Origin: Armatimonadota bacterium | Lineage (GTDB): Bacteria; Armatimonadota; Fimbriimonadia; Fimbriimonadales; Fimbriimonadaceae | DNA length: 64,000 bases | NCBI GenBank assembly: GCA_016789105.1 | Contig: JAEURN010000010.1 | Span: 115,348-179,347 of the forward strand | Direction: 5' to 3' | In this document: positions 1,615 through 36,769 of the stretch, in pieces | Layout of the letters: each line of letters opens with the position of its first letter | Numbering within the stretch: position 1 is the stretch's first letter | Translations under genes and position numbers: made by a program | The notes under the pieces: generated by a model | What the model was told of the DNA's origin: nothing | The model's input: the letters and a program-made list of their open reading frames with translations, nothing else | The model's database searches: none

Positions 1615-1944
1615 ATGACCAAGTGTTTTGCCATCGCCGTGTTGCTGGCCCTGGTGCTGACCGGGTGCAATCCGAACGACACAAAGGATCTGGCCCAAGA
1701 TGGCGGAAAGGTCGCCGAAACCGCCGTGCGTGCCGCTGGCAACGCCGGAGTGGCTGCAAAGGTCAACACCATGCTGGGCTTGCACAAAGATGTGGACATG
1801 TCTGGCCTGCATATCGAAGCCGATGGGGGAACCGTGACCGTGAGCGGCCATGTCGGTTCGGCCAAAGAGAAGAAACTGGTGTTGGATCTGGCTAATAAGA
1901 CACGGGGCGTGGACAAAGTTGTCGACAAACTACGGGTGGAGTAG
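1615..1944 (+). CDS. BON-domain lipoprotein
   Basis: The 109-residue protein begins with a lipoprotein signal peptide (hydrophobic segment ending LVLTGC, lipid-modified Cys at about 18). The mature part ends in a single BON-like domain (about 40-109) with the text TVTVSGHVGSAKEKK and VDKVVDKLRVE. BON domains are usually envelope-associated and thought to bind phospholipid or other hydrophobic surfaces. It is a monocistronic gene facing a minus-strand operon that ends 35 nt downstream. No substrate or partner can be named. The family assignment rests on the G-x-V-x(L/V)-x-G pattern and the final V-x-x-V-x-N/K-L-x-V strand. Confidence 0.75.
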   Translation: MTKCFAIAVLLALVLTGCNPNDTKDLAQDGGKVAETAVRAAGNAGVAAKVNTMLGLHKDVDMSGLHIEADGGTVTVSGHVGSAKEKKLVLDLANKTRGVDKVVDKLRVE

Positions 1945-1979: not shown

Positions 1980-2927
1980 CTAGTCGCGCGGCTCCTTCCT
2001 TTTTTTTGTTTTTGCAAAGAACGAAAGCCCAACGAATGCCCCGCACGCAATTGCCGACAGGCCCATGACCACGCCAATTGGGATCGGGCTTCGGTCTCCT
2101 CGATCGATCCCCTTGTTTGCTATCGCTTCGAGCGACGGCAACGCGGATGCCCACTTGTATTGGGCGGGGAATGAATCACTGAGTCGATAATCGCTGACCG
2201 TTGAGCCTGTGGGCACAAAATTTTCAAATGCTTCAAACTTTTGGTTTGGGATTTGCCGGTAAGTGAGGGTCTCAAAATTAGCCGGAACCATTTTGACGAT
2301 CGAAACGGTGTCAGCTTGTTTGAGAACGACCTTGTAGATCAGATTCTTTCCAAAATAGACATCAAATCCGTTGTCGGTTGCTTTTGCATTTTCGTTGTTG
2401 GGGTTGGGTTGTCCTACCAAACCTATTTCAGACTGGATCGATTTGACCCGGTCGGCAAGCGTGCCTTCACCGAGGAGCAAACGTTCTTCATAGGCTGTGC
2501 AAACGGATCGGTAATGTTCCGGTTTTCGGACGATGAGCATCCCGATGGCATTCTTGCTTCCGTGGTAGCTGGCGAATGCCGTGCTATCAACCATAAACCG
2601 ATCCGGTTCCAGTTCCAAGGTCATTCCATTCACCGAAAGCAAAGGCCCCTCAAGTCTTTGCCCTTCGCGTTTGTACTGGACGATCTTCTTTGCCGTGTAC
2701 CCGTTTGTCCTTTTCGCGACGGCGTTGCTGAATTGGGATTGGGTGTACTTGACGCCAAGCCGGTCGAGTTGTTGGCGCAATTCCGCGGCATTCAAGGCTT
2801 CCGGCGACCTGGCCATGGTTAACTCATAGGTGCACGTTTGCGCCAGGGCCAAATTGCCCGCGCCGGCCGTGAGTGTGGCGATCAATAATGTCTGTCTAAT
2901 GGCTTGACGTCGGTTCATGTCTGGCAC
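1980..2927 (-). CDS. Secreted, C-terminally membrane-anchored protein of unknown function
   Basis: The 315-residue protein has an N-terminal signal peptide with an arginine pair (MNRRQAIRQTLLIATL...ALAQ), which may be Tat-like or Sec. It has one transmembrane helix near residues 280-305 (IPIGVVMGLSAIACGAFVGL) followed by a basic tail (KTKKRKEPRD). The roughly 250 residues between should be outside the cytoplasm, anchored at the C-terminus. I recognise no domain. It is the last gene of a four-gene minus-strand operon and overlaps the preceding Cys-rich gene by 13 nt, so translational coupling is likely. Base composition is visibly less GC-rich than most of the window. Confidence 0.7.
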   Translation of the reverse strand: MPDMNRRQAIRQTLLIATLTAGAGNLALAQTCTYELTMARSPEALNAAELRQQLDRLGVKYTQSQFSNAVAKRTNGYTAKKIVQYKREGQRLEGPLLSVNGMTLELEPDRFMVDSTAFASYHGSKNAIGMLIVRKPEHYRSVCTAYEERLLLGEGTLADRVKSIQSEIGLVGQPNPNNENAKATDNGFDVYFGKNLIYKVVLKQADTVSIVKMVPANFETLTYRQIPNQKFEAFENFVPTGSTVSDYRLSDSFPAQYKWASALPSLEAIANKGIDRGDRSPIPIGVVMGLSAIACGAFVGLSFFAKTKKRKEPRD

Positions 2928-3313
2928 TCGAAAATCTCTTTACTATACGTGTAGTGGGAGTATTCATAACCGTTAACGTTACATGTGCAACCGCCTGTCG
3001 CGAGATTGTTGCACCTTCTCTTTCTCACTGTCACGGTAACGGTGGATGGGTTTGCCAGCTGGGTACACCACCCCGGACCGTTCACACATGCGTTTGCCGT
3101 GTAGGTCTCGACTTCGCACGCAAATTCATCTTGGCTGCAGTTATTCTGTCCAGGCACCAGTGGCGCACAGCTTTCAACTATGTTCTCAAAATTCTTAGAT
3201 TCGCAATGGGTTAGTATCGCATAGGCACTCTGCGATACTCCTAATATCGTTGCAATGCCAATGGTGTACAATGCAATCAAGGGGATCCGACTTATTGTGT
3301 TTCGATTGTTCAT
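2915..3313 (-). CDS. Small secreted cysteine-rich protein
   Basis: This 132-residue protein has a signal peptide (about 1-32, ending in SQSAYA) and a mature domain of about 100 residues containing 10 cysteines, an even number consistent with extracytoplasmic disulfides. No known family is recognised. It is the third gene of the operon that starts at 4342, one base after the pseudopilin stop and overlapping the next gene by 13 nt. Its place beside a pseudopilin suggests that it is a surface component or cargo of the same export system (inference). No SD sequence is obvious, and translation is probably coupled to the preceding gene. Confidence 0.7.
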   Translation of the reverse strand: MNNRNTISRIPLIALYTIGIATILGVSQSAYAILTHCESKNFENIVESCAPLVPGQNNCSQDEFACEVETYTANACVNGPGWCTQLANPSTVTVTVRKRRCNNLATGGCTCNVNGYEYSHYTYSKEIFECQT

Positions 3314-3314
3314 T

Positions 3315-3965
3315 TCAGTTTACTCTCATCATTGTTTCGAAAAATACCTTCTGATCTTGACTCAGGTGACAACTTGTTCCGCGAAAAGCAATAGTTGAGC
3401 TATGAACCCATTTTGCGCTTCCGTCCCAGAATGAGACCACCGATCCGCCATTGCGTGAATCAGCGAGCCACTTGCCACCAAACGGCTCGGCGCCTGGGTA
3501 GAGGCGAGGTGAATAGATATCAAGATGATTACTGGTCAACATTTGAACCGCTGTACCGCTTGGCAATTCAAATGGGGCTGACTCAATGAGCCAGATGGTA
3601 TTCTCCGTTTCGACAACTTCCGTAAAGAATAGGCACCCATTGAGTCCAAACCCATAACCCAGCGGAGGAATCCCGCCAGTTTTTCCCGTATATCTGGGAT
3701 TCCTCAAGATTTCGCGTGATTTTGTGTAGGTGTAGAGTTTGTTTGGCCAATCTTGCCCCGGCAAACCCCTATGTGTAATATGTTTTCCATCGTAATCTTC
3801 GGAGTACAACCGCAATGCCGTTGTGATCTGATGTTGTTGGGCCAGCATCGCGGCCGTATTCGCCGAATCTTTGGCGCGGTTGTAAACAGGAAGAATGATT
3901 GCCACCAAAATCAGAATGATTGCTGACACGACTAAGAGTTCAGTTAACGTGAAGCCGCGTTTCAT
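3315..3965 (-). CDS. Type II secretion/type IV pilin-like pseudopilin
   Basis: The 216-residue protein has a class III prepilin leader: a short basic segment (MKRG), then FTLTELLVV with the Glu at mature position +5, and a long hydrophobic helix to about residue 28. A prepilin peptidase would cut before Phe. The globular part has the text QITTALRLYSEDYDG and an H-x-G-rich C-terminal portion like the large Armatimonadota/Planctomycetes pseudopilin families. It overlaps the upstream DUF1573-like gene by 4 nt (ATGA) and is followed at once by the Cys-rich gene. It would act as an inner-membrane-assembled pseudopilus or fibre subunit. Many such paralogues occur per genome in this group, so its specific role is unknown. 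Confidence 0.85.
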   Translation of the reverse strand: MKRGFTLTELLVVSAIILILVAIILPVYNRAKDSANTAAMLAQQHQITTALRLYSEDYDGKHITHRGLPGQDWPNKLYTYTKSREILRNPRYTGKTGGIPPLGYGFGLNGCLFFTEVVETENTIWLIESAPFELPSGTAVQMLTSNHLDIYSPRLYPGAEPFGGKWLADSRNGGSVVSFWDGSAKWVHSSTIAFRGTSCHLSQDQKVFFETMMRVN

Positions 3966-4342
3966 TTGGCCCCGATCTCCAAATCGAATGGGAGCCTGAT
4001 CAATTTTTCGCCCTGGCGGTTGGTCATTTTCAGAGTCACATTCTTTGCAAGTTTGGCCGACCCATACCGGCTGGTGTCAAACCTCACCGATAGCTTCTTT
4101 GATTGGAACGGCCCAACGATCCACTTTTGCCGAGCGGAGCAACAGTCGCCCTCGTAGTCCAGTATGACTTTGTGGCCTCTCAAATTGATGAAGTCGATTT
4201 CCAACGATCCCCCATCCAGATGATTTTGTACATCAACAGAATCTGGTGCCGAAACGAAATAGGGGGGTGACGTGACGCAGATACCAAATGCGCCAGAAGC
4301 CATCAACACGGTAGCAAAGACGGCGGTTCGATGAACAACCAT
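3962..4342 (-). CDS. DUF1573-like secreted protein
   Basis: The 126-residue protein has a signal peptide (about 1-20) and one Ig-like domain. Features resemble DUF1573: a paired-Cys segment (GDCC, where the family usually has SCGC), an I-x-P-G-like turn (IVGPFQSKKLSVRF), and a following FDTSRYGS...KNVTLKMTN strand pair. It is the first gene of the four-gene operon and overlaps the pseudopilin by 4 nt. A TATACT hexamer lies exactly 6 nt before the ATG, so the message may start on the A of the start codon (leaderless). The function of DUF1573 proteins is largely unknown; in other phyla they often travel with small secreted peptides. Confidence 0.65.
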   Translation of the reverse strand: MVVHRTAVFATVLMASGAFGICVTSPPYFVSAPDSVDVQNHLDGGSLEIDFINLRGHKVILDYEGDCCSARQKWIVGPFQSKKLSVRFDTSRYGSAKLAKNVTLKMTNRQGEKLIRLPFDLEIGAK

Positions 4343-4348
4343 GCCGGC

Positions 4349-4377
4349 AGTATAGGCAAAGGACTTGGTGCCGCCAA
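4349..4377 (-). promoter_or_regulatory. Promoter of the envelope cassette
   Basis: On the minus strand, TTGGCG (complement of 4372-4377) is separated by 17 nt from TATACT (complement of 4349-4354). GCCGGC and then the ATG at 4342 follow. Initiation at the usual distance would fall at or within 1-2 nt of the start codon. The G12/C12 tract lies six bases upstream of the -35 hexamer. Confidence 0.55.
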
Positions 4378-4383
4378 CAACTT

Positions 4384-4395
4384 GGGGGGGGGGGG
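4384..4395. repeat. Homopolymeric G12 tract
   Basis: Twelve consecutive G on the plus strand lie between the rRNA terminator and the promoter of the envelope cassette. Such tracts are prone to slipped-strand mispairing and to sequencing error. Its position just upstream of the -35 hexamer could make it a contingency switch. That is inference only. Confidence 0.9.
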
Positions 4396-4440: not shown

Positions 4441-4449
4441 AAAATGTAT

Positions 4450-4564
4450 CCGCGCGGCGTCCATATCTCCCGGGCAGTCACCCGCCAAGTACATCCGGCG
4501 CTGTAGAGCTTGACTTCCGTGTTCGGGATGGGAACGGGTATTTCCTCTACGCTATGGCCACGCG
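4450..4564 (-). rRNA. rrf: 5S ribosomal RNA
   Basis: The minus strand carries the 5S core (CCCGTTCCCATCCCGAACAC, then GGAAGTCAAGCTC) and the terminal pairing GCGTGGC...GCCGCGC. The length of about 115 nt is normal. It lies about 110 nt downstream of 23S in the same transcription unit. The exact ends are estimated from the terminal helix. Confidence 0.93.
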
Positions 4565-4605
4565 AAAACTCGTGTTGTGTTTTAGCCTTTCAAAGCGAAA
4601 AACAC

Positions 4606-4660
4606 TTTGAAAGCTGCATATTGTTTGTTGACTGCCCGTAAAAGATCACCGGAACCTGCT
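4606..4660 (-). other. 23S rRNA processing stem, 3' arm
   Basis: This segment is complementary to 7583-7638 on the other side of 23S. The outer block pairs GTCAACAAAC and TATGCAGCTTTCAAA with an internal 2/3-nt mismatch. The inner block pairs TCTTTTACG-x-GCA, followed by TTCCGGTG. In the transcript the two arms would form a helix of about 50 bp bringing the ends of 23S together, as in bacterial RNase III processing stems. Confidence 0.85.
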
Positions 4661-4672
4661 CTGAAGCTTGTT

Positions 4673-7572
<2,900 letters not shown>

Positions 7573-8020: not shown

Positions 8021-9001
8021 TTAAGCGCGGTTACGCCGCCGCAAAGCCGCTAGGCCCGCTAAAGCGAGCACTGCCATCGTTGCCGGTTCCGGCACTGCCG
8101 TTGGGTAAAGGAATTGCCGGCCAGCAAAATCGTCGTTCTGCAGGCTGTTCGTCAAAAAGAACGAACTGATGTTGCTCTCCATCATGATGTCCACCCCGGA
8201 CTGGGCGAAAACGGACGTCGGGATCGAGTAGGTGCTCAAGCCCGCACTGGCCGCCGGGTTTGCGATGTTCACCATCCCGGCAAACGAGTTGGAAAGCGTC
8301 GCCGCGGCATTGTTCGGGTTGTAGTTGTCGTCCACAAACGTGCCGCCAGGGCCGCTTTGCAAATCAACATCGGCAAGACCCAGCGTGTGCCCGATCTCGT
8401 GGCGGAGGATGGTCTCAAACCAAGGCAGGGTCCAGAGGGCGTTCGTGTTCGCATTCAGGGTCACATCAGCCCCGGAAATGGGGGCCGCGTTGTAGTTCGC
8501 CGTCCCCGAGGTCAAGGTCACCGTCCCCGCCACCGCGCTGAAAAACGCTTCCGCCCGCAAGCCCGGGTCGCCATTGGAAAAGGTGCTGCCGGAACTCGCC
8601 CCGAACAGGTCGATCATCGCCCCCTGCCGCACGCCGCTGACCACCGATGTGGAGACGGCCGTGCCAAAGTCGGGGCGGAAACTGATCGTCGTCCCCAGGC
8701 CGCTGACCGGGTCGACCACTGTCCAGGCACTGAAAGCCCGCTCCACCGCTTGCTGGAACGCCGCGTCGGTCGGGGCCGCGCCAGACCAGGTGAACACGTT
8801 CTTAAACGAAGAATAGGATCCACCCAAAACCGAATAGGTCAATCCGCCGGATAGCGAGCGGTCAAGCCCACCCATCTGCCGGGGAGCGGCATCCCAACGA
8901 TAACCGCCCGAAAGGCCGCTTCCGCCATAAAAACCGAATCCAAGGGCCGATCCGCAACCGGCAACAATGGCGAGGGCCGAAAAAGCAATCTTCATTTTCA
9001 T
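8021..9001 (-). CDS. PEP-CTERM-anchored matrixin-like metalloprotease
   Basis: The 326-residue protein has a signal peptide (MKMKIAFSALAIVAGCGSALG). A metzincin zinc motif HEIGHTLGLADVD lies near residues 201-213 (HExxHxxGxxD, three zinc ligands and the catalytic Glu). The C-terminal sorting signal has VPEPAT, a hydrophobic helix and RRRNRA. The protease domain would act outside the cell or at the surface after exosortase-type processing. A good SD (GGAGAAG) precedes the ATG at 9001. The gene is monocistronic with its own terminator. The substrate is unknown. It could be self-limiting in the manner of matrixins, but no cysteine-switch propeptide is evident. Confidence 0.87.
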   Translation of the reverse strand: MKMKIAFSALAIVAGCGSALGFGFYGGSGLSGGYRWDAAPRQMGGLDRSLSGGLTYSVLGGSYSSFKNVFTWSGAAPTDAAFQQAVERAFSAWTVVDPVSGLGTTISFRPDFGTAVSTSVVSGVRQGAMIDLFGASSGSTFSNGDPGLRAEAFFSAVAGTVTLTSGTANYNAAPISGADVTLNANTNALWTLPWFETILRHEIGHTLGLADVDLQSGPGGTFVDDNYNPNNAAATLSNSFAGMVNIANPAASAGLSTYSIPTSVFAQSGVDIMMESNISSFFLTNSLQNDDFAGRQFLYPTAVPEPATMAVLALAGLAALRRRNRA

Positions 9002-36525: not shown

Positions 36526-36546
36526 ATTGCGTTACCCTTCATCGCT

Positions 36547-36644
36547 CCGCATTCCCTCCGCCGGCATGACCCGGATCAGGTTCAAGGGGATCGGGTGGGC
36601 AATTCCACCGCATCTCAGCCAGTGCACGTCGGCACCCCCTGCGG
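36547..36644 (-). ncRNA. TPP riboswitch aptamer (THI element)
   Basis: Read on the minus strand, the aptamer shows the P1 pair CCGCA/TGCGG, GGGGTGCC, the pyrimidine-sensor CTGAGA, and the pyrophosphate-sensor block CTTGAACCTGATCCGGGTCA followed by TGCCGGCGGAGGGAA. All conserved THI-box elements are present. TAGAAT (complement of 36671-36676) lies about 27 nt upstream and could be its -10. It is oriented toward the pseudopilin gene at 36470, with a terminator between. No thiamin gene is in the window. Confidence 0.93.
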
Positions 36645-36769
36645 GCAAAACCTTTCGACTTTGCAACTGCATTCTACGCCAGGTTTCTGAATATTCGCTG
36701 ATTGCAGGGCCCTGAAGCCCAGAGTCGCCGGGCGATTTCTGCCTAAAATCAGTTGGGGTTGATCAGAAA

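Follow-up and report, generated by a model that had tools for sequence, protein, structure and literature searches.

The 64-kb stretch of DNA analyzed here (the window) comes from a 2.75-Mb genome of the phylum Armatimonadota, whose relatives include the Fimbriimonadaceae MAGs BROCD034 and TGS_ARM4. Four open reading frames (ORFs) lie on its minus strand at 4342-3962, 3965-3315, 3313-2915 and 2927-1980, where the initial annotation had placed them, and the tight coupling it described was correct: two junctions overlap, by 4 and 13 nt, and one leaves a single nucleotide between the genes. The 13-nt overlap depends on a GTG start at 2927, which gives the 315-aa version of the fourth protein; this length stands if the GTG is used, but an ATG at 2918, located within ...CAGACATGAACCGACGT, is the likelier start, yielding a protein of 312 aa (1980-2918) and an ATGA overlap of 4 nt.

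All four proteins had been described as exported, and membrane or signal features were indeed present gene by gene. The first gene (3962-4342) encodes a divergent DUF1573-type protein of 126 aa with a membrane segment at its N-terminus and a Cys-Cys within its motif region. The window protein itself has no Pfam match, and it can be called DUF1573-like only through its relatives, as 4 of the 12 members of its profile (A7) match DUF1573 (PF07610, best 4e-9). For the product of the same gene (3962-4342, minus strand), the model of the OS_HP2 (seleno)proteins gave a weak match (E 0.021) that falls well short of its cut-off. The second gene (3315-3965) encodes a pseudopilin of 216 aa, whose prepilin signal, MKRGFTLTELLVV, carries the prepilin cleavage/methylation motif of type IV-like pseudopilins and matches N_methyl (PF07963, 1.3e-5 in Pfam) and IV_pilin_GFxxxE (TIGR02532, 3.7e-7, 29.7 bits, cut-off 16.3). 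Its C-terminal SRNGGSVVSFWDG looks like the H-X9-DG motif without the His, and the window pilin was not among the matches to the H-X9-DG model (TIGR04294) at E up to 1. The third gene (2915-3313) encodes the ten-cysteine secreted protein of the initial annotation, a 132-aa product with a Sec-type signal and with ten Cys at family-conserved columns (alignment A14). The fourth protein (alignment A13) has a weaker hydrophobic stretch at its N-terminus and, at its C-terminus, a membrane segment with a basic (+4) tail. No sigma factor, Wzy_C or VKOR gene adjoins this copy; a VKOR gene is found elsewhere in its genome.

In line with the earlier description, 5S (4565-4449) and 23S (7568-4670) rRNA genes lie on the same strand just upstream, outside the system. 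A terminator-like hairpin on the minus strand (4431-4415), located between the 5S rRNA gene and the cassette, and a promoter-like sequence of the cassette's own set it apart from the rRNA unit. Within the window, only the 23S and 5S rRNA genes were found (4449-7568, minus strand), and a PEP-CTERM-type gene occupies the expected place of the 16S gene, which therefore seems to be unlinked. A gene adjoining the rRNA unit (8021-9001, minus strand) encodes a PEP-CTERM protein with a weak match to a matrixin-like zinc motif. Farther away, a TPP riboswitch was detected at 36535-36649 (minus strand, 65.2 bits). On the other side, the cassette is bordered by a BON-domain lipoprotein gene (1615-1944, plus strand), such that it takes up the 2.5 kb that separate this gene from the 3' end of the 23S-5S unit. 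The same interval measures 112 bp in congener G003, holds one gene in G004 and two in G001, with PEP-CTERM-like ends (L114 4314-5315 and L118 580-2470), and has a GC content of 0.32-0.50 across these four genomes. Since the congeners differ in what the interval contains, the site next to the rRNA genes is variable, and the AT-richness of the cassette is partly tied to the site. More generally, this flank resembles a turnover hotspot for envelope genes, where the exported-protein content differs with each congener or is nil.

The lower GC content that had been noted was confirmed, the four genes having values of 0.474-0.520 against 0.589 +/- 0.023 for the 48 other called genes of the window, compared with which they rank lowest in GC and GC3. 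Codon usage was clearly atypical in the pilin and Cys-rich genes and mildly so in the other two. Cassettes elsewhere were likewise AT-richer than their own flanks in 16 of 18 cases, by up to 6.7 points. As for the pseudopilin, the genome yielded ~51 prepilin- or pseudopilin-like matches, and 79 PulG-type pseudopilins were reported in Fimbriimonas ginsengisoli (PMC4072686).

Single-sequence searches returned weak matches only (81 relatives; 31 for the pilin), and among congeners no cassette match. A reading of the four as orphan genes was dropped once the neighborhoods were read, as the weak matches turned out to be a true family with the same order of diverged genes. Profile searches of 291 Armatimonadota genomes (E <= 0.001) detected the family of the fourth, anchored protein in 42 genomes belonging to several families and that of the Cys-rich protein in 27. 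When the two separate match lists were compared, an anchored match was seen to follow immediately downstream, and on the same strand, in 40 of the 42 Cys-rich loci. Between the DUF1573 and anchored genes of G118 and G136, which represent two further families of the phylum, lies a secreted Cys-rich ORF that the profile had missed. A match in G038 (L015) was discarded for lying inside a long ORF on the opposite strand, as were Cys-rich matches in G012, G018, G259 and G290, which had no surrounding cassette. Some copies contain a frameshift or internal stop (G034, G014 and G052), which may represent decay or assembly error. ORFs in neighborhoods and controls were called with a simple custom script rather than a trained gene finder. 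As read from these neighborhoods, the four genes represent a single copy of a hitherto undescribed gene system with a scattered distribution in Armatimonadota, and the recurring gene order supports the earlier proposal of a functional cassette of exported proteins. Co-occurrence elsewhere and atypical composition, the opposites of which had been set beforehand as grounds for rejecting that proposal, were both found. The repeat tracts, tandem gene pairs and accessory genes described below were absent from it.

Two main gene orders were observed repeatedly. In the first, the order is DUF1573 - pilin - Cys - anchored (the window copy, G056, G034, G052, G009, G110 and one G032 copy), and in the second it is [sigma] - DUF1573 - Cys - anchored - (Cys - anchored)n - [Wzy_C] - pilin (G063, G070, genus g50 and relatives). 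As read from these loci, the membrane DUF1573-type protein leads, a pseudopilin usually comes along and repeat tracts are located at the front of the operon, with sigma factor, Wzy_C ligase and VKOR oxidase genes in subsets. An adjacent pilin is missing at G014, two G032 copies, G044 and G027, which counts against the interpretation that we favor. Where pilins are present, those of G070, G063 and G136 scored above the cut-off of TIGR04294, and those of G056 and G052 just under it. Genes of sigma-70 region 4 proteins adjoin the cassette in genus g50, G063 and G070, and are missing from most Fimbriimonadaceae copies. A Wzy_C ligase gene overlaps or abuts the pilin gene in genus g50, G063, G070, G136 and G059; in the ligases tested, only Wzy_C was reported at E up to 0.01, with no match to PglL_A (PF15864). 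In one locus (L056 6125-8296), the Wzy_C ligase, encoded between the anchored gene and the pilin gene, is fused to a peptidoglycan transglycosylase (PF00912, 1.1e-48). Within family f2, the cassette of some genomes also includes an Lnt-like gene. VKOR-type oxidases lie beside three loci (G027, G082 and the second anchored locus of G113) against ~0.06 expected; as 106 of the 113 genomes of the order encode a VKOR, its mere presence is uninformative and its position alone counts. A variant locus in G095 (L101 50-4056), with neither a DUF1573 gene nor a pilin gene, encodes a BT_3928-like membrane protein, an eight-Cys secreted protein, a diverged secreted protein downstream and a Wzy-like ligase.

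The Cys-rich and anchored families had no match in Pfam, NCBIfam or PDB sequences, and AlphaFold gave no usable model for either the anchored or the Cys-rich protein (pLDDT 36 and 49, respectively). A LolA-like fold was considered for the anchored protein and dropped, as no Pfam model supports it. In the Cys-rich family, the ten Cys columns are conserved in 27 proteins (alignment A14) and include a CxC. A GxxVxDxRL...YxWxGxLP region is conserved in the anchored family (alignment A13, 29 members), and 25 of the 29 members possess a C-terminal transmembrane segment (TM) with a basic tail. The two genes also multiply together, forming tandem arrays of up to five pairs, as in G184, where they alternate five times. 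Similarity between Cys-rich proteins correlated with that between the adjacent anchored proteins (r 0.885), a value reached by none of 2000 shuffles of partners within the genome (mean r 0.28), indicating that the pair is the unit of duplication and inheritance. On this evidence, the secreted ten-Cys and C-terminally anchored proteins are a fixed, co-inherited pair, although physical linkage alone could produce the correlation, which does not imply binding.

The DUF1573 gene bears a simple repeat at its 5' end in 18 of 29 copies, whereas only 7 of 271 control genes taken from these loci do (p 3.5e-16). This enrichment held at homopolymer thresholds of 9 and 10 and was robust to using one value per genus, 11 of the 18 genera having at least one such repeat. 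Across the cassettes, simple sequence repeats (SSRs) were ~six times denser than around them (21 in 101 kb versus 11 in 335 kb, p 4e-7). A repeat in the 5' region beyond chance, as is characteristic of SSR phase-variable (contingency) loci, is thus present here, while the 11 of 29 leading genes that have no tract count against a phase-variable reading. Depending on the lineage, the repeat is poly-C, poly-G, poly-T, poly-A, ACAG, GACA or AG (with poly-G/C lengths of 8-17); that the unit varies while its place remains constant favors instability, and not a fixed binding site, as the target of selection. The poly-G of G181, G188 and G185 is located within the -35/-10 spacer between TTGACA/G and TAGAAT (spacers of 15, 15 and 16 nt, respectively), and in G032 an ATG with GGAGG upstream is followed at a short distance by an (ACAG)10 tract. 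Repeat number also differed among closely related copies, another characteristic of such loci, the differences being between copies or species in assemblies, which miscount homopolymers: two copies in G070, 97.0% identical over 970 nt, carry ten and seventeen G with no other internal indel; G184 and G188 carry nine and eight, the tract being the only indel; and G118 has (AG)7 and (AG)9. In G184 (L096 3549-3557) and at the matching L194 tract of G188, the poly-G is located at the 3' end of the sigma gene. With eight G, the sigma frame stops at a TAA touching the ATG of the DUF1573 gene, and with nine it reads on, such that tract length could set translational coupling.

In the window, the candidate phase-variation tract is a C12 on the minus strand (4384-4395; G12 on the plus strand), the sole homopolymer of at least 9 nt in its 64 kb. 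It is located 6 nt upstream of the -35 box of a promoter-like TTGGCG-N17-TATACT on the same strand (4349-4377), whose -10 box ends 6 nt before the ATG of the DUF1573 gene, and the transcript may thus be nearly leaderless. Three promoter-like sites were found in this region against 2.4 expected by chance; hence, it is the position of this one that constitutes the argument.

Taken together, these observations suggest a phase-variable envelope cassette, an interpretation for and against which we find the case evenly balanced. Working from sequence, we infer both the phase switching and an activity of the Cys-rich protein. Slippage of the tract would alter transcription or translation of the operon, leading to expression in only part of the population. 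The pseudopilin would join the cell's type IV- or type II-like filament machinery, and the Cys-rich protein would cross the membrane by Sec and then be oxidized in the periplasm by VKOR, encoded next door in some lineages, an oxidation in which the Cys-containing DUF1573 protein may assist. The anchored partner would hold the Cys-rich protein or hand it over, allowing its display or release by the pseudopilus, and Wzy_C, where present, probably O-glycosylates the adjacent pilin, as PglL-type ligases encoded beside pilin genes do. The product would most likely be a diversifying surface or secreted protein for adhesion, recognition or antagonism. The initial suggestion of a fiber-displayed or exported effector is compatible with these data, though no domain match speaks for an effector. 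Tentatively, and as a plausible step further, the cassettes may form a new class of phase-variable surface or contact system in Armatimonadota, comprising a diversifying secreted ten-Cys core protein with a dedicated membrane partner, which its own pseudopilin would deliver or display and which in some lineages would be under its own sigma factor and glycosylated.

The main rival to an adhesion, recognition or antagonism factor is a set of secreted toxin/immunity (bacteriocin-like) pairs, whereby the Cys-rich protein would attack competitors, the anchored protein would protect the producer, and the pilin and Wzy_C would serve delivery or modification. Fixed pairs of a small secreted and a membrane protein, inherited pairwise, arrayed in tandem and patchy in occurrence, would suit such a role, and the anchored genes of G039 and G020, which stand there with no Cys-rich gene, might represent orphan immunity genes. 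However, no known toxin or immunity domain was found in Pfam or NCBIfam, the anchored protein is large and has a conserved region of its own, and the constant leading DUF1573 gene is left unexplained; we consider this alternative unlikely. Less probable still is an envelope-maintenance or stress module, in which the sigma factor, DUF1573 and anchored proteins would serve in sensing or repairing the envelope, with the Cys-rich protein acting in the periplasm as a redox or metal-binding component instead of being displayed. The adjoining sigma factors, the VKOR genes at some loci and the CxC of the Cys-rich family fit this role, yet the cassette is patchy, missing from all congeners and strongly divergent, most Fimbriimonadaceae copies have no sigma factor, and repeat tracts are unusual in housekeeping functions. 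A chance neighborhood, i.e., an ordinary pseudopilin gene beside unrelated small genes at an AT-rich site, might draw on the many pseudopilin-like matches of the genome and on congeners that have no match and whose corresponding interval is nearly empty or occupied by PEP-CTERM-like genes, but is scarcely credible given a gene order that recurs in many genera of several families and repeats that recur at one place.

If the phase-variable reading is true, repeats kept at one operon position in an environmental, hardly cultivated phylum would point to a selecting enemy or partner that recognizes the structure, possibly a phage, predator, competitor or host surface. It would also assign a role to one of the dozens of function-unassigned pseudopilins with which these genomes abound. 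Host-associated bacteria are where repeat-driven phase variation has been studied best, and the library searched contained no paper combining 'phase variation' with 'Armatimonadetes'. In addition, two protein families that have no database match are now defined and testable.

Among known systems, the Verru_Chthon cassette (TIGR02596, TIGR02599) is lineage-specific, includes prepilin-type proteins and has no known function. It resembles the window cassette in the shared N-terminal prepilin segment only, the two models scoring 14 bits (cut-off 70) and 10.8 bits (cut-off 256.5), respectively, against the cassette. The prepilin N-terminus is also common to the window pilin and the type II secretion protein GspG (3.2e-7; TIGR01710, 30.4 bits, cut-off 88.85), but the cassette has no other type II secretion gene and the C-terminal half of its pilin is of the H-X9-DG type. 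The C-terminal TM and Arg/Lys tail of the anchored protein recall PEP-CTERM proteins, whose like are encoded in the same rRNA-flanking interval in congeners; unlike in these, the conserved motif of the anchored family lies well before the TM, and PEP-CTERM models matched none of 22 members. The Wzy_C ligase genes that overlap or abut pilin genes in some cassettes are reminiscent of PglL/PilO-type O-glycosylation loci, in which a candidate target, in most cases a pilin, is encoded adjacent or close to 21 of 31 pglL homologues, and in which PilO, too, is without the PglL_A motif (PMC3643930). The cassettes differ from PglL in that the tested ligases gave no PglL_A match, and the window copy has no ligase. 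Finally, the fim2/fim3 poly-C promoters of Bordetella pertussis and the porA promoter tract of Neisseria meningitidis represent SSR phase-variable surface loci (PMC2562373). The cassette differs from these in its proteins, in belonging to an environmental phylum and in having several repeat types at one position. Like them, it has a homopolymer at or in the promoter of genes for exported proteins, within the -35/-10 spacer in three loci, and a tract length that differs between near-identical copies; in the window, the C12 tract preceding the -35 box is similar to the poly-C found in the Bordetella fim promoters.
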